Shown in pieces: positions 11,043 through 51,563 of a stretch of DNA of 64,000 nt. Made by a program: the position numbers and the translations under genes. Under the pieces are notes generated by a model. It was not told where the DNA came from. It worked only from the letters and a program-made list of their open reading frames with translations, and did not search any database. Source of the stretch: an uncultured Gemmatimonadota bacterium (lineage in GTDB: Bacteria > Gemmatimonadota > Gemmatimonadetes > Gemmatimonadales > Gemmatimonadaceae); assembly GCA_902826615.1 (NCBI GenBank), contig CADEFN010000001.1:1116001-1180000 (forward strand). Reading direction: 5' to 3'. Every line of letters starts with the position of its first letter. The first letter of the stretch is position 1.

Positions 11043-11665
11043 TGCTGCTGCAGGACACCCGGATCCCGGCCGATTCGTTGCGGGGACTCATCGACACGGT
11101 GTTGTCGGGGAGCGCCTATCAGCAGCGGCTGCGTGAGGATCCGTGGGCGCCGATGCGACGGGCCTGGATGTCCCTCATGGATTGGATCGATGCACTGCGC
11201 GCGTCGAATCCGATGGCGTATTCGGCGCTCATCTGGACCATGGTCGGCGTCCTGCTGCTGATTGTGGCCCATGCCGCCTGGGTCGCCGCGCGGACGATTC
11301 ATGCGGGCACGGCACGCGCGGCGGGGGATGTGCCGGAATCCCGTGTCGTGGCCCGCGACGCCGCCTGGTACGCCAGAGAGGCCGAGCGACTGGCCGGCGA
11401 GACGCGTTATGCGGAGGCGATGCAGGCTGACTTCCTGCGACTGGTGCTCGAACTCGATGGGCGGGAGGTGACACGGTACCACCCAAGCAAGACCCCCATC
11501 GAGTATGCGCGCGAGGCCAGGATCAGCGATGAGGCACGCCAGGCGTTTCGCGACCTGATTCGGGTGTTGTACACCCATGCCTTTGCCCGCATCCCAGCCA
11601 GCGAAGCCACCTGGCTCGACTGGCGCACGGCCGCTGCCGCCGATCGTTATGCGCCTGCGCGCTGA
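11042..11665 (+). CDS. DUF4129-domain membrane protein
   Basis: A 207-residue protein with one clear membrane segment (MVGVLLLIVAHAAWVAA, about residues 66-82). A C-terminal cytosolic helical region of the DUF4129 type follows: DAAWYAREAERLAGETRYAEAMQADFLRL and the late segment TPIEYARE..FRDLIRVLYTHAF. DUF4129 domains are often found at the C-terminus of transglutaminase-like proteins in MoxR loci; here it stands alone. It is coupled to the gene before (TGATG) and overlaps the gene after by 17 bases. Likely one component of a membrane complex with DUF4350, MoxR and DUF58 proteins; the function is unknown. Confidence 0.78.
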   Translation: MLLQDTRIPADSLRGLIDTVLSGSAYQQRLREDPWAPMRRAWMSLMDWIDALRASNPMAYSALIWTMVGVLLLIVAHAAWVAARTIHAGTARAAGDVPESRVVARDAAWYAREAERLAGETRYAEAMQADFLRLVLELDGREVTRYHPSKTPIEYAREARISDEARQAFRDLIRVLYTHAFARIPASEATWLDWRTAAAADRYAPAR

Positions 11666-12863
11666 GCTCGCCATCGGTCTGGGCGCCTTCGCCGCCCTCA
11701 TTCTGCTCGCGGTCGCCGCCGGTCGGCGCGGTGCGGGGGAGTTCAGCACCGACTTGCGGACATCGAGTTTTCTCGCGGGTCCCACGGGCACGCAGGCGCT
11801 CGCCGAGGTGTTCGAACGCAGCGGTGGCCAGGTCACCCGCTGGCGTCAGCGACTCTCGCGGCTCGACACCGCACGGGCGAGAGGTACCCTGATCGTGGTG
11901 GTGCAGCCCCTGACGGAGCCCACCGCGGACGATGTGAACCACCTCTTCGAGCTGCAGAGTGCCGGGGCGCACCTCCTGGTCGGCGGGACAAACAACGAAC
12001 TGCTCCTGCGATGCCTCGGCTACACCCTCGACTATCGCGTGACCGACTCGGCCGGCGTGGTCGCACCGAGTGGAGTGGTCCGGAGTGGTGTGTGGACCAC
12101 CCTCAGTCTGTTGCCCGACACTGCGCGGACACTCCCTGCAGAGATGGGGGGCCGCCAGCCATGCCCATCAGCGGCAGTGGCCACCTCTCGCCCAATGCTG
12201 CGCACGCAGGACGACTCAGTGGTGGCGGTGCACTTCGATGGCACCGAAGGTGGGGGCTCGATCATCGCGCTGTCGTCGGCCACACTCATCACCAACGCCG
12301 GGTTGCGTGCGCCTGAACTCGCCGAGCGGTTCGTGGGAGAGCTGCGCGCCATCACCCCGCACGTCATCTTCGATGAGTACCACCAGCAACAGGGTGACGG
12401 TGGGGCGATGGGGCGTGTGGCGCTTGCCTGGAGCACCCGCAGCCCTGTCGGGTGGATGATCTGGCAGCTGGCCGGTGCCGGGCTCCTCGCGTTTCTGGCA
12501 GGCAGTATTCGATTTGGCCCCGTGCGTCAGGCGATCCCGCGGGAACGCCGGTCACCCCTTGAACATGTGAAGGCACTCGCCACCGCGCTCGGCGCCGCGG
12601 GAGGACACGACGCGGCCATTGCGGCGACCATTCGCGGACTGCGCCGCCGCCTGGGTGCGGCCTCCGGAGAAAGCCGTCGACAGATCGTGGGGCGCGACAC
12701 ATGGCGGCGATGGCTCGAAGAGTTACCCGTGCGGTTGCGTGACCCCTCGCAGCGGGCACTGGCCGAACGCCTGGGGCGATTTGCCGCCCCCGGACAAACC
12801 GATGCTGCCGTTCGTTTGGCAGCGCATACCGTGGAGGATGTGTGGGAAGCTCTGCACCACTGA
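11649..12863 (+). CDS. DUF4350-domain protein of the MoxR-DUF58 locus
   Basis: A 404-residue protein. An N-terminal membrane anchor (LAIGLGAFAALILLAVAAG) is followed by a DUF4350 domain in the non-cytoplasmic part: GTQALAEVFERSGGQVTRWR, then a GATase-like Rossmann core with LIVVVQPLTEPT and GAHLLVGG. A second membrane segment (WMIWQLAGAGLLAFLAGSIRFG, near residue 275) and a cytosolic helical tail follow. DUF4350 proteins accompany MoxR ATPases. Start chosen at ATG 11649, giving a 17-base overlap with the DUF4129 gene; it overlaps the MoxR gene by 22 bases at its end. Tight overlaps throughout support a single transcript and complex. Confidence 0.78.
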   Translation: MRLRAELAIGLGAFAALILLAVAAGRRGAGEFSTDLRTSSFLAGPTGTQALAEVFERSGGQVTRWRQRLSRLDTARARGTLIVVVQPLTEPTADDVNHLFELQSAGAHLLVGGTNNELLLRCLGYTLDYRVTDSAGVVAPSGVVRSGVWTTLSLLPDTARTLPAEMGGRQPCPSAAVATSRPMLRTQDDSVVAVHFDGTEGGGSIIALSSATLITNAGLRAPELAERFVGELRAITPHVIFDEYHQQQGDGGAMGRVALAWSTRSPVGWMIWQLAGAGLLAFLAGSIRFGPVRQAIPRERRSPLEHVKALATALGAAGGHDAAIAATIRGLRRRLGAASGESRRQIVGRDTWRRWLEELPVRLRDPSQRALAERLGRFAAPGQTDAAVRLAAHTVEDVWEALHH

Positions 12864-16767: not shown

Positions 16768-18789
16768 ATGTCTCTTGCGAAGTTCTCCCGTGCGTGTTGT
16801 ACGGCACTTGTCGTTCTGGTGCCCGCCCTCATTGAGGCGCAGCAGGCGCCCCGCCTCGTGGTCACACCGGCCAACCCCCGGATGGTGTCGAAAGACACCC
16901 TGCGCCTCACCGCTCGTCTGGTTGATGCCAGCGGAGCGACGGTGCCTAACGCGCGCATCCGGTACTTCGCGGCTGGCGGAGGCTTCGAGGCGGCCGTTGA
17001 TAGCACCGGGCTCGTCACCTCGGGCGCGGTAGGCAAGTTTCCCGTGACCATCTCGGCCCTCGTGCCCGGGAGCCGCCCTGTCACACAGCGGGTGGAGGTC
17101 AACATGGTCGCTGGCCCCGCCGCGACCGCGACCATTACTCCTCAGCCGACGCGACTCCTCTCCGGACAGCGCTTGCAGCTCAACGCTCTGGCACGCTCCG
17201 CCGACGGCGACTCGGCGTCCGATCGCGTGACGTGGCGCTCGTCAGCACCCGCGGTTGCTGGTGTCAGCGAGCGCGGTGTGGTTTCGGCCCTTGCCCCCGG
17301 GCGCGCCACCATCACGGCGGCCGCGGGCGCGGCGAGTTCGTCCTTCGACGTGACGGTGGTCAACTCGGCCGGGGTGACCGTGACGGTGACGCCAGCGTCG
17401 GTGTCGGCACGTCAGGGGGACGTGGTGCGTTTCGCGACCGAGGTAAAGGATGCCTCGGGGCGCGCGATCGAGGGGTTGGTGCCGAGCTGGACGATGTCGC
17501 CCGGTCGCGGTGAAATCGGGAGTGACGGTGCCTTTGTTGGCCAAACGCCCGGCAGCTATCTGGTAACGGCAAACTTCGGCCGAGTGAGTGCCGATGTGCC
17601 AGTGACCCTGACAGAACGCAATGTGCGGCGCAAGACCACGGTGGTTGGCAGTGTGTTACGCACCGCCTTTGTGACCTCCGAAGTCTGGGTGCATCCCAAC
17701 GGCAAGGTCGCGTATCTGGGCACACACGCCGGTGGCGATCGCTTCTATACGATCGACATCTCCAACCCTGCCAAGCCGGTGGTGGTCGACTCGGTCATCG
17801 ACAACTTGCGTGTGCTCAACGACATCATGACCGACGAGAAGGGCGAGGTGTTGGTCTTCACGCGGGAAGGCGCCGACAACCGGAAGAACGGTATCGTCGT
17901 GATGACGCTGCAGGATCCTCTGCACCCCAAGAAGGTCGGCGAGTTTACCGACGGCGTCACCTCCGGGGTGCACTCGGCGTTCATCTACACCGATCCGAAG
18001 CACGGCCGTCATGCCTACATCACGAATGACGGCACCGGCGCCGTGCACATGATCAACATCGACGACCCCGCCAAGCCGCGCGAAGTGGCCCAGTGGAAGA
18101 CCCCGAGGCCCAACAACAGCGATGTTGGCCGCACCTTGCACGACGTGGATGTGCAGGACGGGCTGCTCTACGGCAGCTGGTGGAACGACGGCCTCATCAT
18201 TCTCGATGTCGGCAATGGCATCAGGGGCGGCACGCCGAGCAAGCCGGTGCTGGTGTCGCAATTCAAGTACGATCTGGACGCCCTCTACCGCACCCGGGTC
18301 GAAACCGACGCCGGCTCGGGTTACATCCGCGGAACCCACACCGCCTGGCGGCACAAGAACTACGTCTTTATTGCCGATGAGGTGTTCGATCCCGTGGAAG
18401 TGAATGCCGCGTTAGGCGGCAAGGTGGGGCGGGCCTATGGGCGTCTCCAGGTGGTCGACGTTTCGGATGTGACGAAACCGAAGTCGGTGGCGCATTACGA
18501 GCCCGAGTTTGGCGGGGTGCACAACATCTGGGCCGCCGGCGACACCTTGTACATGGGCGCCTACAATTCGGGCTTCCACGCATTCGACATCTCGGGTGAA
18601 CTCAAGGGCGATCTGCAGGCACAGGGGCGCGAGATGTCGCACTTCCAGCCGCAAAGCCCGCAGGGCAAGATCCCCAACGCCACCATGACCTGGGGTGTGG
18701 TGGTCAAGAACAATCTGATCTTCCTCAACGATATGAACTCGGGGCTCTGGATCGTGAAGATGGAGCCCAAGCCCTCCGTCGTTCCCTGA
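16768..18789 (+). CDS. Ig-like/LVIVD-repeat secreted protein, paralogue 1
   Basis: A 673-residue exported protein with a signal peptide ending near IEAQQ (residue 25). Residues ~27-290 hold three Ig-like (Big-type) modules: VVTPANPRMVSKDTLRL, then ITPQPTRLLSGQRLQL with WRSSAPAVAGVS, then VTPASVSARQGDVV. The remainder is an LVIVD-repeat propeller (YTIDISNPAKPVVVDS, MINIDDPAKPREVAQW, LQVVDVSDVTKPKSVAHYEPEFGGVHNIW) ending in KMEPKPSVVP. LVIVD proteins are thought to be cell-surface propellers. A second paralogue begins 24 bases later and a third lies at 49551. There is no catalytic motif, so adhesion or binding is the likeliest role. Confidence 0.85.
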   Translation: MSLAKFSRACCTALVVLVPALIEAQQAPRLVVTPANPRMVSKDTLRLTARLVDASGATVPNARIRYFAAGGGFEAAVDSTGLVTSGAVGKFPVTISALVPGSRPVTQRVEVNMVAGPAATATITPQPTRLLSGQRLQLNALARSADGDSASDRVTWRSSAPAVAGVSERGVVSALAPGRATITAAAGAASSSFDVTVVNSAGVTVTVTPASVSARQGDVVRFATEVKDASGRAIEGLVPSWTMSPGRGEIGSDGAFVGQTPGSYLVTANFGRVSADVPVTLTERNVRRKTTVVGSVLRTAFVTSEVWVHPNGKVAYLGTHAGGDRFYTIDISNPAKPVVVDSVIDNLRVLNDIMTDEKGEVLVFTREGADNRKNGIVVMTLQDPLHPKKVGEFTDGVTSGVHSAFIYTDPKHGRHAYITNDGTGAVHMINIDDPAKPREVAQWKTPRPNNSDVGRTLHDVDVQDGLLYGSWWNDGLIILDVGNGIRGGTPSKPVLVSQFKYDLDALYRTRVETDAGSGYIRGTHTAWRHKNYVFIADEVFDPVEVNAALGGKVGRAYGRLQVVDVSDVTKPKSVAHYEPEFGGVHNIWAAGDTLYMGAYNSGFHAFDISGELKGDLQAQGREMSHFQPQSPQGKIPNATMTWGVVVKNNLIFLNDMNSGLWIVKMEPKPSVVP

Positions 18790-18813
18790 CGCCACTCGCC
18801 CCCTCGTCATCCC

Positions 18814-20796
18814 ATGCTGATTCCACTGCTGCTGTTGCAGGCAACCGCCGCCAGTCCGGTTGCCCGCGTGGTCATCACCCCGTCGAAACCCGAGATGGTA
18901 GCGGGCGACACGTTGCGTCTCCGCGCACAGGCCCTCGACGCCAGCGGGCAGCCGGTGCCTAACGCACGTATCCGGTTTCAGGCCGACGGCGGGGATTTTG
19001 AGGCCGAGGTGGACTCGGCGGGGCTGGTACGATCGGGGGCGACGGGAACCATTCCGGTGGTAGTAGTCGCCACTGTCGCCGGCGCTCGCCCCATGGTGAC
19101 ACGGGTGGACGTGCGCATGGTGCCGGGGCCGGCCGCTCGCATTGCGACGGATCTTCGCCAGCTCAAGCTGGCGGCGGGGCAGTCCTTTCGGCTTGGCGCC
19201 AAGGTGTTCTCGAAAACGGGTGATGAACGACCGGGCGATCGGGTGATCTGGCAGGCGTCATCCGCGGTGGCAACGGTGGATGGCTCCGGGGTGGTGCGTG
19301 GCGTGCGTGCGGGGCGCGGTGTCATCACCGCGCGTGCTGGCGAGGCCACCATCACCGTGCCGGTGGAGGTTGTTCCCACGGCGGTCGCTGCGGTCGACGT
19401 CTCACCACCTCGGGTGGAGGTGCGCCAGGGTGATGTGGTCAAACTCGCCGCAACTGCTCGCGATCGCAGCGGCAAGGTGATCACTGGTTTGACTACCAGC
19501 TGGTCCTTTGCTCCTGGCCAGGGTGTGATCGACCAGCAGGGGAGCTTTGTGGCGTATGAACCCGGTGAGTATCTCGTCACCGGGTCGCAGGGTGATCGCA
19601 CCGCACATGCCGTGATCCGCGTGGCTCCGCGTGAGGTGCGTCGGCCGATGAGTGTGGTGGGTCGTCTGCCGCGCACCCGCTTTCGCACCGAGGAACTCTG
19701 GCTGCACCCCGATGGCAAACACGCGTATCTCGGTTCGGGCCGAGGCGGCGATGTGATGTATGCCATCGACATCAGCAACCCGTCGAAGCCGACTGTGACG
19801 GATTCCATCGTCACCAACACGCGTCGTGTGAACGATATCATGACGACGCCGGACGGGAAGTTCCTGGTCTTCACGCGTGAAGGCGCGAGTGACCGCAAAA
19901 ATGGCATCGTGATCTGCTCGCTCGAGGACCCCAAACACCCGAAGATCATCAGTGAGTTCACGGAGGGCGTGACCTCGGGAGTCCACTCGGCGTTCATCTT
20001 CAAGCAGGAGAAGTTCGGCACCCACGTCTATCTCACGAATGACGGCACGGGCGCACTTCATGTCGTGGACATCACCGACCCCTACAAGCCGAAGGAAGTC
20101 GCGCAGTGGAAGACACCCAAGGCCCACGGTGATGCCGGGCGTTCGCTGCACGACATCGACATTCAGGATGGTTTGCTCTACGCCAGCTGGTGGAACGACG
20201 GGTTGGTGGTGCTCGATGTCGGGAATGGGATGAAGGGCGGATCGCCGTCGAGCCCGCAGTTGGTCACGCAGTACAAGTACGACCTCAACGCGCTGTATCG
20301 CGACGTCGAGGCGGTCGGCGGACCCGGGTTCATTCGCGGGACACATACCGCGTGGCGCCACAAGAACTATGTGTTCATCGCCGACGAGGTCTTTGCTGCA
20401 AAGGAAGTGCAGGGCGCGAAGGATGCGTCGGCCTCACGGGCCTACGGGCGACTGCAGGTGATCGACGTGAGTGATATGGCCAACCCCAGGAGTGTGGCCT
20501 ACTACGAGCCCGAATACGGTGGTGTCCACAACGTCTGGGTGACCGGTGATACCCTGTTCATGGGCGCCTATGAAGCTGGCTTCCGCGCGTTTGACATCTC
20601 CGGGGAGTTGCGGGGCGATCTCCGCGCGCAGGGTCGCGAGATCGGTCACGTCAACACCGCCGACATGGATGGCAAGGTGCAGAACGCGTCGCGTGTGTGG
20701 GGCGTGATCTACAAGAACGGGCTTGCGTGGGTGAACGACAACCAGAACGGATTGTGGGTGATCCGGATGGAGCCAAAGCCGACTGTGGTTCCGTAA
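18814..20796 (+). CDS. Ig-like/LVIVD-repeat secreted protein, paralogue 2
   Basis: A 660-residue protein with the same architecture as its upstream neighbour: Ig-like modules, then an LVIVD propeller ending in RMEPKPTVVP. It follows paralogue 1 after 24 bases and is probably cotranscribed. Its signal sequence is unusually short (MLIPLLLLQATAAS) and lacks the basic residues normally found at the start of a signal peptide. No better in-frame start is available upstream. It is more similar to paralogue 3 at 49551 than to paralogue 1 (shared AYLGSG.GGDVMYAIDIS, TRRVNDIMTTPDGK and KAHGDAGRSLHDIDIQDG-like stretches), so the local pair is not the most recent duplication. Confidence 0.84.
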   Translation: MLIPLLLLQATAASPVARVVITPSKPEMVAGDTLRLRAQALDASGQPVPNARIRFQADGGDFEAEVDSAGLVRSGATGTIPVVVVATVAGARPMVTRVDVRMVPGPAARIATDLRQLKLAAGQSFRLGAKVFSKTGDERPGDRVIWQASSAVATVDGSGVVRGVRAGRGVITARAGEATITVPVEVVPTAVAAVDVSPPRVEVRQGDVVKLAATARDRSGKVITGLTTSWSFAPGQGVIDQQGSFVAYEPGEYLVTGSQGDRTAHAVIRVAPREVRRPMSVVGRLPRTRFRTEELWLHPDGKHAYLGSGRGGDVMYAIDISNPSKPTVTDSIVTNTRRVNDIMTTPDGKFLVFTREGASDRKNGIVICSLEDPKHPKIISEFTEGVTSGVHSAFIFKQEKFGTHVYLTNDGTGALHVVDITDPYKPKEVAQWKTPKAHGDAGRSLHDIDIQDGLLYASWWNDGLVVLDVGNGMKGGSPSSPQLVTQYKYDLNALYRDVEAVGGPGFIRGTHTAWRHKNYVFIADEVFAAKEVQGAKDASASRAYGRLQVIDVSDMANPRSVAYYEPEYGGVHNVWVTGDTLFMGAYEAGFRAFDISGELRGDLRAQGREIGHVNTADMDGKVQNASRVWGVIYKNGLAWVNDNQNGLWVIRMEPKPTVVP

Positions 20797-32665: not shown

Positions 32666-33526
32666 ATGAAGGTGTTCATGGTGCAAATGACAGGAGGGAC
32701 GCTGGCGGCGACATGGCGAGAAGGTGCGAGCCCTTGGCGACATCCCGCGATCGCCCTCCTCGCCGCCTCGATCCTGACGGTGTTCCTCGCCGCGACAAGT
32801 GTCATGAGTCATTCGGTTCAGGGCAGAACGACGTTGTGGACTTCGGCCGTGTCGTGGGCCGCCGCGACGTCGGTCACCTGGCTTCTGGTAACGGTAGTCT
32901 CGCTGAACGGGTTCGCACGTTTGGGCCGGGGAGCAAGTGCGGGGTGGCGAACCGTCGCTGGGTGCGTGGCACTTGCCGGTGTGGTCCTGGTTCTCGCGCC
33001 TGTGCTGAGGGCGGCCCTCGATCTCCTTCTTCCGCAGACCGCTCAGCTTGGCGGACCGTTCGCAGACCGCGCAATTCGCTTTGCCCTCCGTTGGCTGGAC
33101 TCCGGCATTCTCGCCTATGCGCTGCTGCTGATCGCCGGGTTCTGGTGGTCACGACACGCCGCGACTGCACATGGCGTGGAGCGCGCCTCAGAGGGCGTGC
33201 CCGCCATTGTCATTCGACATGGAGAGCGTTCCATCACTGTACGGCACGAGCAGATCGACTACGTGCGTGGTGCCGGCAACTACGTCGAGATCCATGCGGA
33301 CAGTGCTCGTCACCTGGCGCGCCGCAGCATGAGTCGCATGCAGGAGGACCTGGGCAACACCCACTTTGTGCGAGTCCATCGCAGCGCCATTGTCGCACGC
33401 TCGGCCATTCGTGAGGTGATACGGCGCGATGGCGCGGTATCGGTGGTGGTTCGCGACGGAACCGAGATACCTGTCAGCAGAATGGGTCGCCGCGCACTCG
33501 AGGCGATGCTCGGCCCGCGCGCCTAA
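32666..33526 (+). CDS. Membrane-bound LytTR transcription regulator
   Basis: A 286-residue protein with four hydrophobic segments in the first ~165 residues and a C-terminal LytTR DNA-binding domain (about 183-284). Diagnostic blocks are [39 protein letters not shown] and [16 protein letters not shown]. There is no receiver domain, so the membrane part should sense directly and control DNA binding. The start codon is 72 bases from the divergent propeller gene, a likely target. It ends in a GCCTAACG word at 33521-33528, where its TAA overlaps the TAG of the opposing acyl-CoA dehydrogenase. Confidence 0.85.
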
Positions 33527-34716
33527 CGCAACTCCAGCCGGGCGACGGTGCGCTGATGCACCTCGTCCGGCCCATCGGCGATCCGCAGCGAGCGCTGCCC
33601 GGCGTACATCGACGCCAGGGGATGATCCGCGGATAGCCCACCACCCCCGTGTGCCTGGATCGCGAGGTCGATCACGCGGCAGGCCACGTTGGGGGCGACC
33701 ACCTTGATCATCGCGATCTCCTTCTGCGCACCCTTGATCCCCACGGTGTCCATCATCCACGCCGCCTTGAGTACCAGCAGGCGCGCCATGTCGATGTCAC
33801 ACCGCGCCTCGGCGATCCGTGCGTGCCACAACGACTGTTCTGCCACAGGTTTCCCGAATGCAACGCGCGATTTGAGTCTCGCGCACATCAGCTCAAAGGC
33901 GCGTTCGGCGGAACCGATCGACCGCATGCAGTGATGAATACGCCCGGGGCCAAGGCGGCCCTGGGCGATCTCGAACCCGCGGCCCTCACCAAGGAGCATG
34001 TTGTCTGCGGGCACTCGCACGTTCGAGAAGTCGATCTCACAGTGCCCATGCGGGGCGTCATCGTATCCGAAGACTGACAACTTGCGCACCACCGTGACCC
34101 CCGGCGTCTCCAGGGGCACGAGGATCATGGAGTGCTGCTCGTGGCGTGCTCCGGACGTGCTCGAACGACCCATGACAATGAGCAGCTTGCAGCGGGCATC
34201 GCCGGCGTTGGTCGCCCACCATTTGCGCCCGTTGAGTACGTACTCGTCACCGTCGCGACGAATTTCCAGGGCGATATTGGTCGCGTCCGATGACGCCACA
34301 TCGGGCTCGGTCATCACGTACGCCGAGCGGATCTCGGCGCTCAGGAGTGGGGTCAGCCATTGCTCCTGCTGCGCGGGTGTGCCGTACCGGTCGAGCACTT
34401 CCATGTTCCCGGTATCGGGGGCGGCGCAGTTGAACACCTCGGGTGCCCACTCCACACGTCCCATCACCTCCGCCAGCGATGCATACTCGAGGTTGGTGAG
34501 ACCGGGGCCGCGCTGGCTGTGAGTCAGGAAGAGATTCCACAACCCGGCAGCGCGGGCTTCGGAGCGGAGTTCGTCGATGAGTGGCACCACGGCCCACCGG
34601 TCACCGCGCTCCACCTCGTGGCGGTACCGGATCTCGTTAGGGTAGACGTGACGAGCCATGAAGGCGCTGAGCTGGCCGAGCAGCGCCTGGGTGCGTGGCG
34701 AAAGGGCGAAGTCCAT
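33523..34716 (-). CDS. Acyl-CoA dehydrogenase (ACAD10/11-like)
   Basis: A 397-residue flavoenzyme oxidising an acyl-CoA to the trans-2-enoyl-CoA. Visible blocks are [20 protein letters not shown] (the TEP substrate/FAD block), [47 protein letters not shown] and [22 protein letters not shown]. The last has Arg at positions typical of the ACAD10/11 group. Length fits the family. A phosphotransferase of the type fused to ACAD10/11 in animals is encoded at 40858-41907, so the two may work on hydroxyacyl-CoA substrates together. Its stop overlaps the LytTR stop. Confidence 0.9.
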
Positions 34717-34761
34717 TCGGGCAAACTACGCTCCCGTCAGGCCGCCGTCATTCCCTCCCGC

Positions 34762-36264
34762 TCAGCGGCCACCCTGGGCGTCGACCGTCCGCTCACTCGC
34801 CCAGGAGCGCAGCGTGGACAACCGCTCCTGCATGGTACGCGAGAGGGGGCGGGTGGCCTGGAGTTCTGCCAGCAGGTGCGCGGTTCCGAGCGGACCACCG
34901 GCATGGAACGCCGTGAACAGGGCGCTCACGACCGCCTGCTCGATTTCGGCGCCGCTGAAGCCATCACTCGCGGCTGCGATGGCGTCGACATCAACCGCCG
35001 CGGTGAGCTGCCGTCGTTTGCGCAGGTGGATGCGGAAGATCTCGGCGCGCGCCGCGGGGCCGGGCAGGTCCACAAAGAACACTTCGTCAAAGCGGCCCTT
35101 GCGCACAAACTCCGGCGGGAGCGCCGAGACGTCATTGGAGGTGGCGACCACAAAGACATCGCCACGGCGTTCCTGGAGCCACGACAAGAAGCCACCAAAC
35201 ACACGTTGCGACACGCCGCCGTCCTGCTCGCCAGCGTTTCCGGAGAAGGCCTTCTCCAATTCGTCGATCCACAACACGATCGGGGCCATACGTTCGGCGG
35301 TGCGAAGTGCGCGCTTGAAGTTCTTCTCGCTGTCACCCACAAACTTGTCGTAGAGCAACGCTGGGTCGAGCCGAAGAAGGGGCAGGTCCCATTCATGAGC
35401 GACGGCCTTGGCGCAGAGGCTCTTGCCGCACCCCGGCACGCCCATGAGCAGGATACCCTTGGGAAAGGGAAGCCCGAAACCGGCCGCACGTTCGGGGTCG
35501 GCGATGCTCACGTGCCGCTTGGTGAGCCACGCCTTGAGCCCGTCGAGCCCGGCCACATCACTCATCCGTTCGGTTGCGCTCCAGTATTCGAGCAGGCCAT
35601 CCTGCTCCACGGCCTGCCGCTTGGCGGTGGCCACACGTGGAATGTCGCTGGCCGACAGCGCACCATCCACCATGATCAGGCGTGTGAGAATCTTCTCCGC
35701 TTCTACAAGGGTGAGTCCAAGCAGATTGTGCAGGAGCCGGGCCCGATCTTCCGCCGTGAGCTTGACCTTCACCGGCATGCGGGCGGTGTGGTCGCGAATC
35801 ACGCGCTCCATCAGGACGCGGTAGTCGTCGAGCACCGGGGCGGGAAGGCGTACCACAATGGCATGTGGCCTGAGGGCCTCTGGCAGCCGAACGTCGCCTC
35901 CGCTGATCACCACGGCACCACGCCGTACCTCAAAGCGATCGACCACATCTCGCAGGTGCGACACCACCAGTGGATCGTTGAGATATTCCCCAAACAACGG
36001 CAAGTGAAAGACCCCCGCCTCACGTTCGACAAGCCGCAACACATCGGCGGGCGCGGCACTGTCCTCGACGAAGGGCGCATTGGATTCACCGCCGAACTGG
36101 AGGCCTTTGGAACGCCGCCACCCGTGGTAGCGCAGCGAGAGTTTGGCCGCGACCTGGCGCAGCGCGTCATCGGCGCGGTCCAGCTCCCAGGTGTCGATCA
36201 CGATCAGGGCATACCGCGACCGGATCAGCAGTTCGAGTTCGTCGACGAATTCGTGAAATCGCAT
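34762..36264 (-). CDS. Ycf46-like AAA+ ATPase
   Basis: A 500-residue protein. The N-terminal ~240 residues match the plan of Ycf46 proteins: the start ELELLIRSRYALIVIDTWEL, a degenerate P-loop-like domain, then an alpha-helical bridge. The C-terminal AAA+ module has Walker A GVPGCGKS, Walker B IVLWIDELEKAF, sensor VVATSNDVSALP and the Arg-finger block VRKGRFDEVFFVDLP. Ycf46 is encoded in algal plastids and cyanobacteria; other bacteria have homologues of unknown role. It is divergent (222 bases) from a SWIM zinc-finger gene and may cooperate with it. Arrangement with SWIM and a large helical protein suggests a multi-component chaperone or quality-control system. That is an inference. Confidence 0.82.
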   Translation of the reverse strand: MRFHEFVDELELLIRSRYALIVIDTWELDRADDALRQVAAKLSLRYHGWRRSKGLQFGGESNAPFVEDSAAPADVLRLVEREAGVFHLPLFGEYLNDPLVVSHLRDVVDRFEVRRGAVVISGGDVRLPEALRPHAIVVRLPAPVLDDYRVLMERVIRDHTARMPVKVKLTAEDRARLLHNLLGLTLVEAEKILTRLIMVDGALSASDIPRVATAKRQAVEQDGLLEYWSATERMSDVAGLDGLKAWLTKRHVSIADPERAAGFGLPFPKGILLMGVPGCGKSLCAKAVAHEWDLPLLRLDPALLYDKFVGDSEKNFKRALRTAERMAPIVLWIDELEKAFSGNAGEQDGGVSQRVFGGFLSWLQERRGDVFVVATSNDVSALPPEFVRKGRFDEVFFVDLPGPAARAEIFRIHLRKRRQLTAAVDVDAIAAASDGFSGAEIEQAVVSALFTAFHAGGPLGTAHLLAELQATRPLSRTMQERLSTLRSWASERTVDAQGGR

Positions 36265-36486
36265 GGTCTGAGGGGGGGCTGCTATCAGACGGCGCCCTCC
36301 GTGGTCGCGTCACCCCGAGGCTCCAGGGAAGTGGTACCGCGCCCGGCCGTCGCAGTCCAGCGCACCCTCTCAAGGGCCGGGGTCCAGATACTCGCGGGTC
36401 ACGCCCTCGCTGAGGCGGGGAAGACGCCACATCTTCCCCGGCGAACCACAGCTGACCTTCGTCACCTCCCCGTCGTCCTTCAGTCT

Positions 36487-37848
36487 GTGACCAGCATCGA
36501 GCACGCGTACCGGTATTCGTATCCCTCGGCGGTCACTCCGGCCGAGGGGCAGGCGGGCCGTGTCGAGTTGGCGACAAGCGGAGGTGAGCAGGCCAGCCCC
36601 TTGTACTTCGAAGGGCAGCTCGTGTACCCGCGGGAGACGGCCGACTTTCTGCGTGCGCTCATCGACGTGGTGCACGCGCGCTACCACGTCCCGGCGGCGA
36701 TGCTGCAGCGGATCCTGATCATGGCCGATCCCGTGGTCACGTGCACGGAAGGACGCCTGCGCTTCGAAGGGTTCTCATCCTGCTGCGGTGTGTACGCGCG
36801 GCTGGACGTGCTCGAGAACGGATTGCGAGGCACCACCTTCGGCCGCGGAACCACCAACGTCGACTTCAATCCACCCATGCTGGCGGCGCTTGCGCGGGTG
36901 CGCGAGAGCGACGCACTGGGCCTCTCGGTTGGCCGCGATCATGTCGCGGCCTCTACGACCCGGGACACCGTGATTGAACGTCGTGTGCCGCTGCCCGCGC
37001 GGTGGGTGCGTGGGTTTGGCGAAGTGCAAGCGTGCCTGGCCCGCATGACGCAGCGTTGCGAGATCCCGGGTGTCGAGGCTCGGCGCTTTCTTCGTGCGCT
37101 GCCCAAAGCCAGCATGCATCGCCGCGCCACATGGATCACCGCGGCGGGTGCCGGGTTGCGAGTGTCGCAGCTGGAAACGCCGCAGGGCGTGCGCGTTGGG
37201 GGAGTGGAGCGGCTGCGTGTGCTGACGCCGGTCATTCACCACGCCGAGCTGCTGCGTGTCTATAGCGACGACACGACGGGGGCGAGTGCCTGGGAGATCG
37301 TGGCGACCGGGATGCGGTATCTGGTCGCCTTCAGTCCGGAAGTGTGGCGTGGCTTCTCCGGAGAAGGCCAGCTGCTGCGCGAGATGGCAGCGAGTGATCG
37401 CGACGCCCTGTTGTCACGAGTGCGGGCAGCCCTCACCTGGGAGTGGCTGCTGGATGTTGACGTGCTGGCGGCCGAGGTTGGCGCACCGGTGTCGCAGGTG
37501 CGCAGCGCACTCGCCGTGTTGAGCAGTCGCGGGCTGGTCGGATACGATCTGGCGGAGCGAGGTTTTTTTCATCGTGTGCTGCCGTTTGATCTTGGCCAGG
37601 TCGAGCGATTGCAGCCGCGGTTGCGGGCGGCGCGGCGGCTGGTTGCTGAGGGCGCCGTGCGAGTCGAGGAGAATGCGGACTCGCACCTGGTGGGCGTCGT
37701 GGTGAGTGATGCGGTCGAACATCGGGTGCGGCTCAGCGCCGACTCGTTCAGCTGCACGTGCCCCTGGTACGCCAAACATCGGCAGGCACGTGGCGAATGC
37801 AAACATGTGCTCGCCGTCCGCCTCACCCTGGAGGCAGCCGATGTCTGA
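36487..37848 (+). CDS. SWIM zinc-finger protein
   Basis: A protein of about 453 residues. The C-terminus has a SWIM finger, CxC (423, 425) then CxH (438, 440), in FSCTCPWYAKHRQARGECKHVL. The central part is helical with a winged-helix-like stretch (SQVRSALAVLSSRGLVGYD). SWIM domains bind DNA or protein. I take GTG at 36487 because the residues from there on look protein-like and the open frame upstream is antisense to the ATPase gene; no good ribosome-binding site is seen, so the start is uncertain. It overlaps the next gene by 8 bases (ATGTCTGA at 37841-37848). It is the core of the Ycf46/SWIM/large-protein cluster. Confidence 0.75.
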   Translation: MTSIEHAYRYSYPSAVTPAEGQAGRVELATSGGEQASPLYFEGQLVYPRETADFLRALIDVVHARYHVPAAMLQRILIMADPVVTCTEGRLRFEGFSSCCGVYARLDVLENGLRGTTFGRGTTNVDFNPPMLAALARVRESDALGLSVGRDHVAASTTRDTVIERRVPLPARWVRGFGEVQACLARMTQRCEIPGVEARRFLRALPKASMHRRATWITAAGAGLRVSQLETPQGVRVGGVERLRVLTPVIHHAELLRVYSDDTTGASAWEIVATGMRYLVAFSPEVWRGFSGEGQLLREMAASDRDALLSRVRAALTWEWLLDVDVLAAEVGAPVSQVRSALAVLSSRGLVGYDLAERGFFHRVLPFDLGQVERLQPRLRAARRLVAEGAVRVEENADSHLVGVVVSDAVEHRVRLSADSFSCTCPWYAKHRQARGECKHVLAVRLTLEAADV

Positions 37849-40783
37849 GCTGCTCCTCGACGCCGCGGAACGAGGGGACGCCAGCGCCGTGGTCGCGGCT
37901 CTCACCGGGATGCCCGAAGCCGCGCGGCGGGGGGCGGCGCCCCGGGTCCTGAGCGCGATCCGTGAGGCGTCACGTGGGTACGGCATGCCAAACGGTGCAC
38001 TGCAGCTCGCCGCGCTTGGGGTGTGCACCCTGAGCGAATTGGAGCACCTGCCGCGCCATGCCCGTGCGCGTGGGGCGGAGGCCATCGTTGTCCTGCGCGA
38101 TCGTCGACCGGAGTGGTTGCCGAGGTGGGTGGAAACCCTCATGGAGGATGAGTTCTACTGGACCTGGTTCCCGTTGGTTCGAACCCTGGTGCGCGACGGG
38201 CTGTGTCCGCGGCCAGATCATCCGCACTACCCCCTCGGCATGATCACGGGGCTTCGTGCACTTCGTTCGGCGGCGCCCAACCCGCCCATCCAGGACGTGT
38301 TGCGTCAGGATCCTGACTTGCTGCCAGAGATCTGGCACCTGTTCGAACTGGAAGGGGGCGGCGAGAACAGTCTGGCCAACTACGACCGTTTTTCGTTCGG
38401 GTCGACCTGGTCAGAGGCGTTCCTCGCACTCATGCGAGACGGCACGTTACCGCGCGAACGTCTTCTGGATGCCACGATCGCCGCGTTAGGGCGCGACTTC
38501 AATCACTATCGGGCCAAGTGGTTCATCGACTTCCATGACAAGCTTGCGCCGACGCCAGGGGAGCTCACGGCGCGTGCGGCGCACTATCTCGAACTGCTGC
38601 ATCGCAGCACGCCCAATGTGGTCGCGTTTGCGCTCAAGACGGTCGAGAAACTCGATCGAGCACAGCCGCTTGATGATCACGCGCTCCTCGCCGGCTTGCG
38701 GTCACGCATGCGGTCCGAGGTGGCGTCCCAGGTGCGAAGCGTCATCAAGTGGATATCCCGAGTTGCGAAGCGAAACCCGGCGGTGACCGCGGAATGCATG
38801 ACGATCGTGAGCGAGGCCGTGTTGCACGAGCACAAGGAGGTGCAGCACGACGCGCTGGCGTGGATTCAGCAGCAGAAGGGCACGCTCACTCCTGCGCACC
38901 GCGCCTTGCTGGAGCGGGCGCGCGGAATGGTGGCGGCGAGCAACACCGAGCTCCTCGCGTCGCTCATCGGCACGGCCAGCGCACCGGTGCCCACGCCCAT
39001 ACCGACCGGAACACCCGCCCGACACGTGTCCCCCTGGTCGCGGCTCGCCGGGCTCGATCTGCTTGATACACCTGGCGTCGAACTGGAATCGTTAGGGCCG
39101 GCGCCGTTCGACGGCACCGACGTGCCCCGTTTGCACGCGTCGGAGACGGTGGTGCCGGCGGAGGACCTCGCCGCGCTCATCGAACGTTGTGCCAGCGCTA
39201 TTGAAAATGCCGGTGATGTACTGGAGTATGAACTGGCGCTCGACAGCATCGCACGGCTTGCTGATCAGCGCCCGCCAGACTTTGCCAAGCGACTCAGCCC
39301 CCTGACAAAGCGCAGCGCCAAGCGCCTCGCGGCTCGTGGTGCGGTGCCATTCTCAGGGCAGGACCACACGCTGGACTTGTGTGCCGTGATTCATGCCTGG
39401 GCCACGCAACAGGTGCTCGACCCAATTCGCATGACGGAGTACGAGCGCGATTTCCTGCGCTCACCGTTGCAGGCAGATGGTCCGGGAGTACCAGTCGAAT
39501 GGCGGCGGTCGGTCGCCGGCTATGTCGCACGGCGCGCGCTGGCCGTCGCGCGGCAAGTCTCGACGGGGACAGCGCTTCCCCTGTTGAGCACTCCCACGCA
39601 CGCTTCTGGACTGATTGATCCTCATGCACTCGCCGTGCGCACGCAGGTGTGGGTGGCCGCGCAGGCGACGCCCGACCCGCACGACGTGACACTGGCCATG
39701 TTGCGCGTGGCGCCCGACGACCGTGCGAAGGCGTTGCAGAACTTCCCCAACGGGCCTGCAGAATGGGTGTTGTCCTTGCGATACGCACTGGGCGGCGACC
39801 ATGCGATTGGTGAATCGGTGCAGCTGTGGACCGCAGCCGCTTTCGCACGTGCACCCTTCGCGACTGATGAGGTCCTGTGCACGCATCACCCCGCATTGGG
39901 CGCCGACGCAGGGGTCCCCGCTCGTTATGCACCGCAGGTCACGTCATGGGAGTCACATGGCCATACGCACCACCGGCTGCGGGTGGACGTCGCGCCGGCA
40001 CCATCACTACGCGTCGACGTCCTGCCCGCCGCCTTTTTCGCCGAGCCGAGTGCGGATCGATACTTCACCGAGTCGTGCCTTGGCCCGCGCTCGGATGGTG
40101 CCTATCGGCTGGCCGCGTCGGTGAGTCCCGTGGTGGCCGATGCACTGGCGGCCGAGTCCGCGTGCATTCTTGGCGCCAACCTGGACTGGTGGGAGGCGCA
40201 GTGGGCCAACAAGGTGTTGCTCGAGCCCTGGGCGAATCCCGACCTTCCGTTGCGCGACATGCCACGCCTGCTGCTGGTGCTTGGTCTTGCTGCCAAGGAT
40301 CCCGGAGAGCACGGGCTTGCCTCGGATGTCGCCATTCGAGCCATCGAAGACGGGCGTCTGGTCGGTGATGAGCTCGGTGCAACCATGTCCCTGTTGCTTC
40401 CCACAGGGTTGGTCAAGCCGGCACGGTGGGCGCGGTCGCTCAAGGACGTGGCGCGTCACTCGGCGTGGCACACGTTGACGGTGCGCGTGGCGATCGAACG
40501 TGTCTGTGGCGCCAGTGTCGGCGTACCGCCGCGCGAACTCCTGGAGCTGCTCCTGGAGTTGTGCACCGAGTGTGGGTGTGCGGCGTCTGGCGCTGCCGTG
40601 CGCAAGTCGCTGGCACGAGCGGGGACGAAGGGAAAGGTGGGCGCCACTGCGACCGCCTTGCTCGCGCTGCAGCAGCGAGACGCCACACATGCCACGCATC
40701 AGGCGCAGGCCAGGAGCGCGGCGTACGAAGGACGTCGTGCGCGTGCCGAGCGTTGGGGGCAGATGCGAGAAGGGCTCTCGTAA
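37841..40783 (+). CDS. Large helical protein paired with SWIM (DUF6493-like)
   Basis: A 980-residue cytosolic protein that is mostly helical. The first ~330 residues read like HEAT/ARM repeats (Ala/Leu/Arg-rich paired helices such as LLDAAERGDASAVVAALTGMPEAARRG). The middle is Ala/Pro-rich with a linker near residue 360-385. The C-terminal half has more varied content, including AESACILGANLDWWEAQWANKVLLEPWANP. The plan is similar to proteins annotated DUF6493 that accompany SWIM zinc-finger genes, but I cannot confirm this without a profile search. It overlaps the SWIM gene, so the two are translated together. No catalytic motif found. Likely a scaffold. Confidence 0.7.
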   Translation: MSELLLDAAERGDASAVVAALTGMPEAARRGAAPRVLSAIREASRGYGMPNGALQLAALGVCTLSELEHLPRHARARGAEAIVVLRDRRPEWLPRWVETLMEDEFYWTWFPLVRTLVRDGLCPRPDHPHYPLGMITGLRALRSAAPNPPIQDVLRQDPDLLPEIWHLFELEGGGENSLANYDRFSFGSTWSEAFLALMRDGTLPRERLLDATIAALGRDFNHYRAKWFIDFHDKLAPTPGELTARAAHYLELLHRSTPNVVAFALKTVEKLDRAQPLDDHALLAGLRSRMRSEVASQVRSVIKWISRVAKRNPAVTAECMTIVSEAVLHEHKEVQHDALAWIQQQKGTLTPAHRALLERARGMVAASNTELLASLIGTASAPVPTPIPTGTPARHVSPWSRLAGLDLLDTPGVELESLGPAPFDGTDVPRLHASETVVPAEDLAALIERCASAIENAGDVLEYELALDSIARLADQRPPDFAKRLSPLTKRSAKRLAARGAVPFSGQDHTLDLCAVIHAWATQQVLDPIRMTEYERDFLRSPLQADGPGVPVEWRRSVAGYVARRALAVARQVSTGTALPLLSTPTHASGLIDPHALAVRTQVWVAAQATPDPHDVTLAMLRVAPDDRAKALQNFPNGPAEWVLSLRYALGGDHAIGESVQLWTAAAFARAPFATDEVLCTHHPALGADAGVPARYAPQVTSWESHGHTHHRLRVDVAPAPSLRVDVLPAAFFAEPSADRYFTESCLGPRSDGAYRLAASVSPVVADALAAESACILGANLDWWEAQWANKVLLEPWANPDLPLRDMPRLLLVLGLAAKDPGEHGLASDVAIRAIEDGRLVGDELGATMSLLLPTGLVKPARWARSLKDVARHSAWHTLTVRVAIERVCGASVGVPPRELLELLLELCTECGCAASGAAVRKSLARAGTKGKVGATATALLALQQRDATHATHQAQARSAAYEGRRARAERWGQMREGLS

Positions 40784-40857
40784 GGCTGGTCGCAAGCCGT
40801 ACCGAACGCGGGTGACGCTGGGCGCTCGCGCAATGCGGGCGGGCGATGCGACGCGTT

Positions 40858-41907
40858 TCAGCCGAGCAACGTACAGGCCCGCTCGGCGATGGGCTCGACC
40901 AGCTGAGCCATGTCATGTGCGCGGCGACTCGACGCGTTGCCCTCGATGGCTCGCCGCGCCACGCCTTCCAGGATGGCGGCGAGGCGAAACATGTTGAACG
41001 CAAGACAGACCGACCAGTCCGCCGGAATGACTCCGCCTGCAACTGAGAGGTAGGTATCGATGTACTGGCGCTCGGTCGGGATCCCGGCAGTAGCGACGTC
41101 AACACCGGCGAGACTTCCGAACGCCCCGGGTGGCAAGTGCCACAGCATGCACTGATAACTCAGATCGGCCAGCGGATCGCCCAGTGTGGAGAGTTCCCAG
41201 TCGATGACGGCGCGGACGTCGAGTGTCGCCGAATCGAAGATCACGTTATCCAGGCGGAAGTCGCCATGAATGACACACTGCCGACCGCTTCCCGCCGGGG
41301 GCTGCTCCTGCAGCCGACGCATGAGGGTGTCCATCGCCGGAATTTCGCGTGTCTTCGCTGCCAGGTATTGCTGGCTCCACCGCGTGATTTGGCGTTGGAA
41401 GTAATCGCCCGGTCGCCCGAAGTCGTCGAGCCCGGCCTGTTGCACCGGAACCTTGTGGAGACCGGCCAGTGTCTCCGCCAGAGAGCGAAAGAGCTGGTGC
41501 CGTTCTGCCGGCTGAAGGCCGGGGAGCGACGGATCCCAGAAGATTCGGCCCTCCACGCATTCCATCACAAAGAAGGGAGTCTCCATCACCTCGCGGTCGT
41601 CGCAGAATGCCAGGGGTCGAGCGACCGGCACGCCGTGAGAATGCAGTGCGGAGGTGATGCGAAACTCGCGATCGACGGCGTGGGCCGTTTTGAGGGTGGG
41701 GCCGCCGGGCTTCCGGCGCAGGACGTATCGCTGAGATGGCGTTTGGAGGAGGAAGGTAGGGTTCGACTGCCCGCCCTTGAACTGAGAGACCTGCACCGGC
41801 CCCGCGAATCCCGGGATCGCGCTCTCGAGCCAGCGGCTCACCCGCTCCACATCAAAGGCATGTGCGGGCGCGACGGGACCGGTCCCTTCAAAGGCATGGG
41901 TATCCAT
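40858..41907 (-). CDS. APH-type phosphotransferase (ACAD10/11 N-domain-like)
   Basis: A 349-residue protein of the aminoglycoside-phosphotransferase/choline-kinase fold. Key motifs are QFKGGQSNPTFLL (nucleotide loop), YVLRRKP (ATP-binding Lys), CVIHGDFRLDNVIFD (catalytic HGDxxxxN) and AVIDWELSTLGDPLADL (metal-binding DWE). These are the positions seen in the kinase domain of ACAD10/11, which phosphorylates 4-hydroxyacyl-CoAs before elimination by the dehydrogenase domain. In this genome the dehydrogenase (33523) is a separate gene about 6 kb away. Start at the ATG ending at 41907; a TTG three codons upstream is an alternative. Antibiotic resistance is not implied. Confidence 0.86.
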   Translation of the reverse strand: MDTHAFEGTGPVAPAHAFDVERVSRWLESAIPGFAGPVQVSQFKGGQSNPTFLLQTPSQRYVLRRKPGGPTLKTAHAVDREFRITSALHSHGVPVARPLAFCDDREVMETPFFVMECVEGRIFWDPSLPGLQPAERHQLFRSLAETLAGLHKVPVQQAGLDDFGRPGDYFQRQITRWSQQYLAAKTREIPAMDTLMRRLQEQPPAGSGRQCVIHGDFRLDNVIFDSATLDVRAVIDWELSTLGDPLADLSYQCMLWHLPPGAFGSLAGVDVATAGIPTERQYIDTYLSVAGGVIPADWSVCLAFNMFRLAAILEGVARRAIEGNASSRRAHDMAQLVEPIAERACTLLG

Positions 41908-41979
41908 CAGCCACAAGATACGGATGCGGCGGTCGGAGGGGTGCGGCCCCCCGGAGATCCGGGAGACCGCGTCTCCGTA

Positions 41980-49550: not shown

Positions 49551-51563
49551 ATGCCAATGAAACGTGTTGCAGCAGGAGCCATCCTCGTGCTGGCTTCGAC
49601 GGCGTCCGCGCAATCGTCGCAGGTCGCCCGTATCGCGATCTCACCGGCCAAGCCAGTCGTGACCGCGGGCGATACCATGCGCATCAGCGCGCAGGCGCTC
49701 GACGCAGCGGGCAAGGTGGTGCCGGGTGTCCGCGTCAGGTTCCAGGCCCAGGGTGGCCGATTCGAGGGGGATGTCGACTCGTTAGGTCTGGTGACCTCTG
49801 GCGCTACGGGCACCCTCCCGATCGCCGTGGTTGCCATCATTCCTGGTGAGCGGCCTCGCACCGAGCGGATCGAGGTCAAAATGGTCCCCGGTCCCGCCGC
49901 CGCCATCACGCCAACCTACACGAGCGTCCGGATGGCCCTGGGTCAGCGCCTGCGCGTGGGCGGACAGGTGTTCTCCAAGACGGGTGATCCCCGCCCCGAC
50001 GAGCGCATTACCTGGAAATCATCGGCGCCCGCAGTTGCCCGTGTAGACGCCGACGGCATGGTCGCCAGCGCGGCGGCCGGCAAGGCGACGCTGACCGGCA
50101 CCTCGGGCGCTGCCACGGTGAACGTGCCCGTTGAGGTCATGCCGACGCAGATCGCGAGTCTCGAACTCTTTCCGGCACGCGTCGACGCCAGACAGGGCGA
50201 TGTGATCCGTCTCAAGGCAACCGCCAAGGACGCGCGCGGCAAGGAGATCGCCGGGCTCTCCACGGGCTGGTCGTTCTCCCCGGGTGAAGGGGTGATCGGC
50301 CAGGATGGCGCCTTTACCGGGTATGCACCGGGCGAGTACGTCATCACCGCCAGTCAGGGTTCGCGGACCGCGCAGACCGTGGTGCGCCTCACCGCCCGCG
50401 ACGTGCGCCGACCGCTCTCCGTGGTTGGTCGCCTTCCGCGGACCCGCTTCTCCACTGAAGAAGTCTGGATCCACCCCGATGGCAAACATGCCTACCTCGG
50501 TTCGGGTTCGGGGGGTGACGTGATGTACGCGATCGACATCAGTGACCCGGCCAAGCCGACGGTCACCGATTCCATCGTGTCCAACACCCGCCGCGTCAAC
50601 GACGTGATGACCACGCCCGATGGCAAGTATCTCGTCTTCACGCGCGAAGGCGCGAGCGACCGCAAGAACGGCATCGTCATCTGCTCGCTCGAAGACCCGA
50701 AACATCCCAAGGTCATCAGCGAGTTCACCGATGGCGTCACCTCCGGCGTGCACTCGGCCTTCATCTACCAGCAGCCCAAGTTCGGCACCCACGTCTACCT
50801 CACCAATGACGGCACGGGCGCGCTGCACGTGCTGGACATCAGCGATCCCTACAAGCCGAAAGAAGTGGCGCAATGGAAAACGCCCAAAACGCATGGAGAT
50901 GTCGGCCGCACGCTGCATGATATCGATGTGCAGGACGGTCTCCTCTACGGCAGCTGGTGGAACGACGGCCTGGTGATCCTCGACGTCGGCAACGGCATCA
51001 AGGGCGGCTCGCCATCCAACCCCGTCATGGTGTCGCAGTTCAAGTACGATCTCAACGCCATGTACCGCGATGTCGAAGCGAGTGGTGGCCCGGGCTTCAT
51101 CCGCGGCACCCACACGGCCTGGCGTCACAAGAACTACGTCTTCATTGCCGACGAGGTCTTCCCTGCTGCCGGTGTAAAGGGCGCCAAGGACGCGTCAGCA
51201 GGTCGCGCCTACGGCCGCCTGCAGGTGATTGACGTCAGCGACATGAACAACCCCAAGTCGGTCGCGCACTATGAACCCGAGTTTGGTGGTGTGCACAACG
51301 TGTGGGTGGCGGGTGACACGCTGTACATGGGGGCCTACAACGGCGGCTTCCGCGCGTTTGACGTCGGTGGCGAGCTGCGTGGCGACCTGCGCGCGCAGGG
51401 CAGGGAGATCGGGCATCTCAACACTGCCGACATGGACGGCCGCGTGAAGAACACCGCCATGACCTGGGGTGTGGTCGTGAAAAACGGCCTCGCCTATGTG
51501 AACGACATGTACAACGGGCTCTGGATCGTGAAAATCGAACCCAAGCCGTCAGTGGTGCCTTAG
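49551..51563 (+). CDS. Ig-like/LVIVD-repeat secreted protein, paralogue 3
   Basis: A protein of about 670 residues (start at 49551; ATG at 49557 is equally possible). Signal peptide ends near ASAQ. Ig-like modules are followed by an LVIVD propeller with the same sequence blocks as paralogues 1 and 2, ending KIEPKPSVVP. It is close to paralogue 2 (AYLGSGSGGDVMYAIDISDPAKPTVTDSIVSNTRRVND). It stands alone about 29 kb from the other two. Its convergent neighbour on the 3' side is a plug-like lipoprotein, with the palindrome at 51565-51682 between them. Function as for the others. Confidence 0.84.
   Translation: MPMKRVAAGAILVLASTASAQSSQVARIAISPAKPVVTAGDTMRISAQALDAAGKVVPGVRVRFQAQGGRFEGDVDSLGLVTSGATGTLPIAVVAIIPGERPRTERIEVKMVPGPAAAITPTYTSVRMALGQRLRVGGQVFSKTGDPRPDERITWKSSAPAVARVDADGMVASAAAGKATLTGTSGAATVNVPVEVMPTQIASLELFPARVDARQGDVIRLKATAKDARGKEIAGLSTGWSFSPGEGVIGQDGAFTGYAPGEYVITASQGSRTAQTVVRLTARDVRRPLSVVGRLPRTRFSTEEVWIHPDGKHAYLGSGSGGDVMYAIDISDPAKPTVTDSIVSNTRRVNDVMTTPDGKYLVFTREGASDRKNGIVICSLEDPKHPKVISEFTDGVTSGVHSAFIYQQPKFGTHVYLTNDGTGALHVLDISDPYKPKEVAQWKTPKTHGDVGRTLHDIDVQDGLLYGSWWNDGLVILDVGNGIKGGSPSNPVMVSQFKYDLNAMYRDVEASGGPGFIRGTHTAWRHKNYVFIADEVFPAAGVKGAKDASAGRAYGRLQVIDVSDMNNPKSVAHYEPEFGGVHNVWVAGDTLYMGAYNGGFRAFDVGGELRGDLRAQGREIGHLNTADMDGRVKNTAMTWGVVVKNGLAYVNDMYNGLWIVKIEPKPSVVP

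Follow-up and report, generated by a model that had tools for sequence, protein, structure and literature searches.

Three neighbouring genes of an uncultured Gemmatimonadota bacterium, encoding an AAA+ ATPase, a SWIM zinc-finger protein and a very large helical-repeat protein, raise the question of whether they form a single system and, if they do not, which of them belong together. The window analysed here is a stretch of 64,000 nucleotides, taken from a genome of 5.9 Mb that is spread over 98 contigs. All three open reading frames (ORFs) are found at the positions given in an earlier note on this DNA, with the ATPase gene facing away from the SWIM gene (Table 1); the two are divergent and 222 bases separate their starts, while the SWIM ORF (end 37848) and the ATG of the DUF6493 gene (37841) share the 8-base overlap that the note had reported. 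The mechanical ORF of the SWIM gene is longer, but its start was set at GTG 36487 (453 aa), since the homologues align from this codon. The 500-residue ATPase is labelled Ycf46-type on its architecture, a family to which we assume it belongs. The observation of three genes is not a chance one, because two of the three belong to curated families and the third, the SWIM protein, is recognised by the PADLOC model SWIM_XIII at 1.2e-57. The earlier note had taken the ATPase, the SWIM protein and the large protein as one candidate system; the link between SWIM and DUF6493 stands, being present in 76 of 80 loci, and the ATPase falls away, being near none of the same 80 (the best 80 of at least 564). 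The unit is a pair of two genes, SWIM-DUF6493, not three; it is widespread in bacteria, conserved and co-inherited.

Table 1. Features of the locus, with positions in the window.
Feature	Position	Strand	Evidence	Remark
ACAD gene	33523-34716	-		Block flank
Block holding all three genes, 6.1 kb	34717-40857	.		Between ACAD and APH genes
Ycf46-type AAA+ ATPase, 500 aa	34762-36264	-	ORF; Pfam AAA 6.8e-28	Block neighbour, not a conserved part of the SWIM-DUF6493 pair
SWIM protein gene, 453 aa, GTG start	36487-37848	+	ORF; homologue alignment; PADLOC SWIM_XIII 1.2e-57; hhalign against retron SWIMs; model pLDDT 89.9	
Predicted PCNA/sliding-clamp fold, residues 40-287	36604-37347	+	VIA-align Z 17.2; Foldseek PDB 2.3e-9, viral library 3.7e-9	
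Winged-helix-like segment, about residues 303-362	37393-37572	+	Model secondary structure; weak regulator matches	
SWIM zinc-finger ligands C423, C425, C438, H440 (residues 423-440)	37753-37806	+	CxC...CxH	
DUF6493 gene, 980-aa helical-repeat protein	37841-40783	+	Pfam; model pLDDT 91.0, pTM 0.89; ARM/HEAT-type matches	
PF20103 (DUF6493), residues 53-286	37997-38698	+	Pfam 9.5e-19; 68.1 bits, cut-off 25	
PF25148 (DUF7824), residues 452-675	39194-39865	+	Pfam 1.4e-17	Above cut-off
PF25149 (DUF7825), residues 759-886	40115-40498	+	Pfam 6.3e-5; 23.1 bits, cut-off 27.4	Below cut-off
APH gene	40858-41916	-		Block flank

The pairing was established by scanning the SWIM alignment against a collection of genome contigs; at least 564 loci came up, of which the best 80 (L012-L091) were kept. 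In 76 of these best 80, a DUF6493 gene lies within 10 kb of the SWIM gene, and in 71 it sits directly downstream on the same strand; 68 of the 71 follow from a script rule, and L032, L051 and L083, in which DUF6493 overlaps the SWIM end and which the script had classed as "elsewhere", were recounted as adjacent. DUF6493 is found directly upstream in L014, upstream on the opposite strand in L068, and some kilobases downstream on the opposite strand in L058, L067 and L075; the four remaining contigs stop 201, 370, 487 and 1855 bases past the SWIM match. Across 67 pairs, the divergence of one protein tracks that of the other (r 0.93 between their distances, with a shuffled maximum of 0.15), a coefficient that still contains the common ancestry of these related genomes. 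SWIM-DUF6493 is almost certainly a real unit. Independent distribution of the families, which the earlier note had set as the refutation of its proposal, holds for the ATPase and fails for SWIM and DUF6493. At least 16 of the best 80 loci (of at least 564) carry two or more DUF6493 matches near SWIM, often in tandem, some of which could represent a single gene that the search divided.

The pair is spread across several phyla in a patchy manner: within one actinobacterial family, 49 of 120 genomes are positive (6 of the 49 with fragments only), DUF6493 occurs in a single one of 200 Gemmatimonadota genomes, the window's own, and the SWIM gene in one of the five genomes of the window's genus. Eight plasmid loci were inspected; the pair is carried by L004, L005, L006, L007 and L010, a SWIM homologue alone, without DUF6493, by L008, and DUF6493 alone, without SWIM, by L009. 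The plasmid pair, or one gene of it, lies near an integrase, insertion-sequence or toxin-antitoxin gene in L005, L007, L009 and L010. A metagenome bin titled Klebsiella pneumoniae (L082, CAMAVY010000083.1) also carries the pair; in the tree, its SWIM protein is placed close to those of Alphaproteobacteria and Planctomycetes, and the label of the bin is probably wrong.

Sliding clamps hold DNA-copying enzymes on DNA, and it is to this class of proteins that the predicted structure of the SWIM protein leads. In an AlphaFold2 model built on 58 aligned SWIM proteins (pLDDT 89.9, pTM 0.88), residues 40-287 very probably adopt the two-domain fold of a PCNA-like clamp: VIA-align superposes them on 2izo_B (213 residues, rmsd 2.9 A), the top 50 listed entries are all PCNA clamps, and Foldseek retrieves hits for the predicted model both in the PDB and, in a viral library, to a viral PCNA (scores in Table 1). 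No clamp is found by sequence, either in Pfam or among PDB sequences searched with the SWIM profile up to E 10, so that the resemblance is visible in structure only. The likeness to PCNA and the archaeal clamps lies in the predicted fold of residues 40-287; the modelled SWIM protein differs from them in carrying additional parts, namely a hairpin at the N-terminus, a winged helix and a SWIM finger, and in lacking a clamp membership detectable by sequence. Narrow searches of listings of the open-licence literature gave no report of a clamp fold in this SWIM family and none on DUF6493; the SWIM component itself is related to a retron protein that is already catalogued.

For the winged-helix-like segment, the resemblance to regulators with a winged helix is weak (best E 0.16) and the Pfam DprA_WH match of 0.0012 lies below cut-off; the zinc finger scores 14.6 bits with the Pfam SWIM model (PF04434), under its gathering cut-off of 19.6. 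The SWIM alignments A3 and A7 comprised 66 and 58 rows respectively, from which near-copies were left out. The four zinc-finger ligands are conserved in both the DUF6493-type and the retron-type rows, as are residues including D81, P82, E94, G121, T122, T123, E164, P170, W173 and R242. The loop at 288-294 (RGFSGEG) is near invariant in the DUF6493-type proteins only, and could be a contact specific to the partner. A strongly basic lining of a putative ring was considered and is not seen in the putative lining helices: the mean net charges of the four helices that would face the ring are -0.03, 1.20, 1.06 and 1.66 in the DUF6493-type rows, and the retron-type rows differ. As these helices are only mildly basic, encirclement of DNA is not assumed; the clamp-like part may close into a ring on DNA or may instead serve as a decoy or as a platform for docking.

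The large protein had been described as HEAT-like, and a confident model now backs this: apart from one long beta hairpin, it is an all-helical solenoid. Its structural matches are ARM/HEAT scaffolds, the best of which (VIA-align Z 12.3) is within the range of unrelated helical models, so that the claim for its fold is limited to "helical repeat". PF20103 had been named as a family to compare it with, and the match is above cut-off; the 980-aa protein belongs with the Pfam DUF6493/DUF7824/DUF7825 proteins by PF20103 and PF25148, although its DUF7825 part stays below the cut-off.

What such a pair does is approached here through the clamp fold and through the relationship of the SWIM protein to type XIII retrons, both of which point towards a nucleic-acid or defence machine, two of the possibilities offered in the earlier note for the three genes. 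Most likely, the pair is a retron-free module for DNA surveillance, perhaps for defence. In its full form, this reading holds that the clamp-like SWIM protein and the DUF6493 solenoid make up a two-gene replication-surveillance module that works without a reverse transcriptase, with the ATPase as a passenger or local recruit; its probability is put at about 0.5. With its clamp-like platform, its winged helix and its zinc finger, the SWIM protein would bind to DNA or to proteins of replication, and DUF6493 would serve as a scaffold or effector arm that reads the state of the SWIM protein. Together, the two may watch for abnormal replication, such as that of phage or damaged DNA, and shut down either the intruder or the cell itself. 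The same sensor-like protein is coupled, in type XIII retrons, to a reverse transcriptase (with msDNA) and to a WGR/HEAT protein. Defence is the leading role because the closest relatives are retron accessory proteins and the presence of the pair is patchy, and its chances are set a little short of even.

According to the strongest competitor, the pair serves chromosomal DNA maintenance or repair and not defence: the clamp-like protein would handle forks or ends, DUF6493 would recruit partners, and the retrons would have borrowed the SWIM protein later. In its favour, each of the three parts of the SWIM protein (clamp, winged helix and zinc finger) is a module for nucleic acids, the distribution over several phyla is broad, and the neighbourhoods agree with it, for no defence island is apparent among 131 ORFs taken from 19 of 24 chosen loci and read without a control set; in these, PADLOC matches at 1e-10 are few and mostly to general enzymes, and Pfam gives three phage integrases, so that the neighbours lend no support to a defence role. 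Against a housekeeping role of this kind stand the patchiness and the fragments in the actinobacterial family, the near absence from Gemmatimonadota and the insertion of the genes as a block in this genome, and a repair module is possible but held to be unlikely.

The block itself lies between an ACAD and an APH gene. In two genomes of the same genus (L240 and L241), ACAD comes directly after APH, in the same orientation and with fewer than 100 bases between the matches (identity to the window 66% and 61% for APH, 78% and 80% for ACAD); as the two genes are contiguous there and split by 34717-40857 here, the block entered, or was built, at one site. Its edges show no clear direct repeats, only 8-base matches of the kind expected by chance, and its GC content resembles that of the flanks, so that composition gives no sign of a foreign origin. 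Within the window, there is no tRNA insertion site and no known RNA element. A viral origin was considered and rejected, since a comparison of the SWIM alignment with viral contigs gave 14 pattern matches, none of which was confirmed as a relative. Two other parts of the window, 17355-20781 and 49598-51548, match the same region beside APH-ACAD in L241, which makes the genes there paralogous.

That all three genes sit together inside the APH-ACAD pair is the part of the three-gene proposal that stands; elsewhere, the distribution of the ATPase is independent. Searched for up to 10 kb away at E 1e-4, the ATPase turns up at none of the 80 SWIM loci (the best 80 of at least 564); at the plasmid locus L004, an AAA protein of distant similarity (32% across some 125 residues) is encoded about 5 kb off. 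Near full-length matches to the ATPase occur in 23 of 150 Gemmatimonadota genomes including the window's own, one match being partial; in the 22 positive genomes among the 149 others, identity is 43-71%. The ATPase is present in three of the five genomes of the window's genus, two of which (G629 and G029) have no SWIM gene. In G629, it is located on a different contig from APH-ACAD, which is why its presence in the block may reflect a local move. The ATPase loci of 11 relatives share no family with the window except the ATPase itself, shadow ORFs apart. In this one genome, the ATPase is best seen as a passenger or as recruited locally.

A machine made of all three products would have the ATPase load or remodel the clamp-like SWIM protein, as clamp loaders do with PCNA, on a DUF6493 scaffold. 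Such an arrangement is suggested by the single block, set between two genes that adjoin each other in L240 and L241, and by the divergent ATPase and SWIM genes sharing a short intergenic region. It is rejected on distribution and mostly refuted already: to the empty count at the SWIM loci (0 of the best 80 of at least 564) and the two congeners that have the ATPase and lack the SWIM gene are added the contrast between an ATPase in 23 of 150 Gemmatimonadota genomes and a DUF6493 in 1 of 200, and the best solved relatives of the ATPase, which are of the CDC48/VCP type and not clamp loaders. The three-gene machine is thus highly improbable. The yehL/yehM/yehP/yehQ-type loci, to which the earlier note had pointed, likewise group a SWIM protein with an ATPase; in the window, the ATPase lies outside the conserved pair.

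In type XIII retrons, the SWIM protein works with a reverse transcriptase, msDNA and a WGR/HEAT protein. The SWIM protein of the window is homologous over its full length to this retron protein, judging by profile comparison (hhalign 100%, E 3.9e-60, residues 3-453); its SWIM_XIII score is 194 bits, and true retron members reach about 750. One such member came from the scan itself, in a Massilia genome whose second SWIM_XIII match is much the stronger, at 754 bits. Its locus (L122, SWIM gene at 11183-12835) reads WGR_XIII/HEAT-ARM_XIII (1095 bits), SWIM_XIII and RT_XIII (622 bits), a complete type XIII protein set in which the first gene overlaps the second by 4 bases. Further retron-type loci were collected from the family of this genome, where the profile matches 3 of 97 genomes, and from Myxococcota, where it matches 28 of 188, three of these only weakly. 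A related reverse transcriptase lies beside the SWIM gene in 28 of the 31 retron-type loci, the other three being cut at a contig end, and DUF6493 is found in none of the 31. Conversely, no reverse transcriptase was detected in any DUF6493-type locus, nor in the window at E<=1, with a single Massilia RT_XIII query that could miss very different enzymes. Type XIII is also among the PADLOC retron calls for a Variovorax (PMC11953036), and a plasmid of Methylobacterium bullatum (L011), whose record carries no annotation here, has a type XIII retron in the order ARM, SWIM, RT. The SWIM_XIII profile matches in Methanosarcina acetivorans as well, so that an archaeal member exists.

The two systems are alike in their SWIM protein and in encoding a large helical-repeat protein adjacent to it; they differ in the reverse transcriptase, in the identity of the partner (DUF6493 instead of WGR/HEAT-ARM) and in gene order, which is partner, SWIM, RT in L122 and SWIM then partner in the window. 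The large protein has no PADLOC match, no WGR_XIII or HEAT-ARM_XIII partner occurs within the window, and hhalign gives DUF6493 and the retron WGR/HEAT protein a probability of 4%, that is, no detectable relatedness. An Rfam scan of the window gave no match, with a database that may or may not include the type XIII msr-msd. In an unrooted tree of 120 SWIM proteins from a quick search, one branch with support 100 splits 31 retron from 89 DUF6493 rows, placing the DUF6493 type on a separate branch; left out were L008 (SWIM without DUF6493), the shorter copies L126-L128, L154 and L155, and L131-L153, L159 and L160, which are short or the same loci as L161 onwards. Three genomes (G203, G273 and G316) each carry both SWIM types, which therefore do not replace each other. 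Full-length SWIM homology and a large helical partner in both systems might suggest that the pair arose from a type XIII retron, by decay or derivation, through loss of the reverse transcriptase and msDNA. This is very unlikely given a DUF6493 type that forms a separate and broader branch not nested in the retrons of the unrooted tree, partner proteins without detectable relatedness and a reverse transcriptase never found, with the one RT_XIII query, beside a DUF6493-type SWIM gene.

A retron-free surveillance pair remains the preferred reading, and a PADLOC SWIM_XIII match by itself does not denote a retron, a point of which annotators should be warned. On homology, the retron-type SWIM proteins presumably have the clamp fold too. 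If the fold is real, an accessory protein of type XIII retrons gains a concrete biochemical identity, that of a clamp-like DNA or replisome platform, and the retron-free sister pair offers a simple two-gene system in which to examine such a platform. More tentatively, fusions of sliding clamp, winged helix and SWIM finger might form an exchangeable core for DNA surveillance, with one branch built on a reverse transcriptase and msDNA and another, retron-free, on DUF6493 for defence, sensing or mimicking the replication clamp; were this true, the retron would guard, or be built around, a clamp mimic. A real clamp fold would also hint at a way in which retrons could detect the replication of phages.
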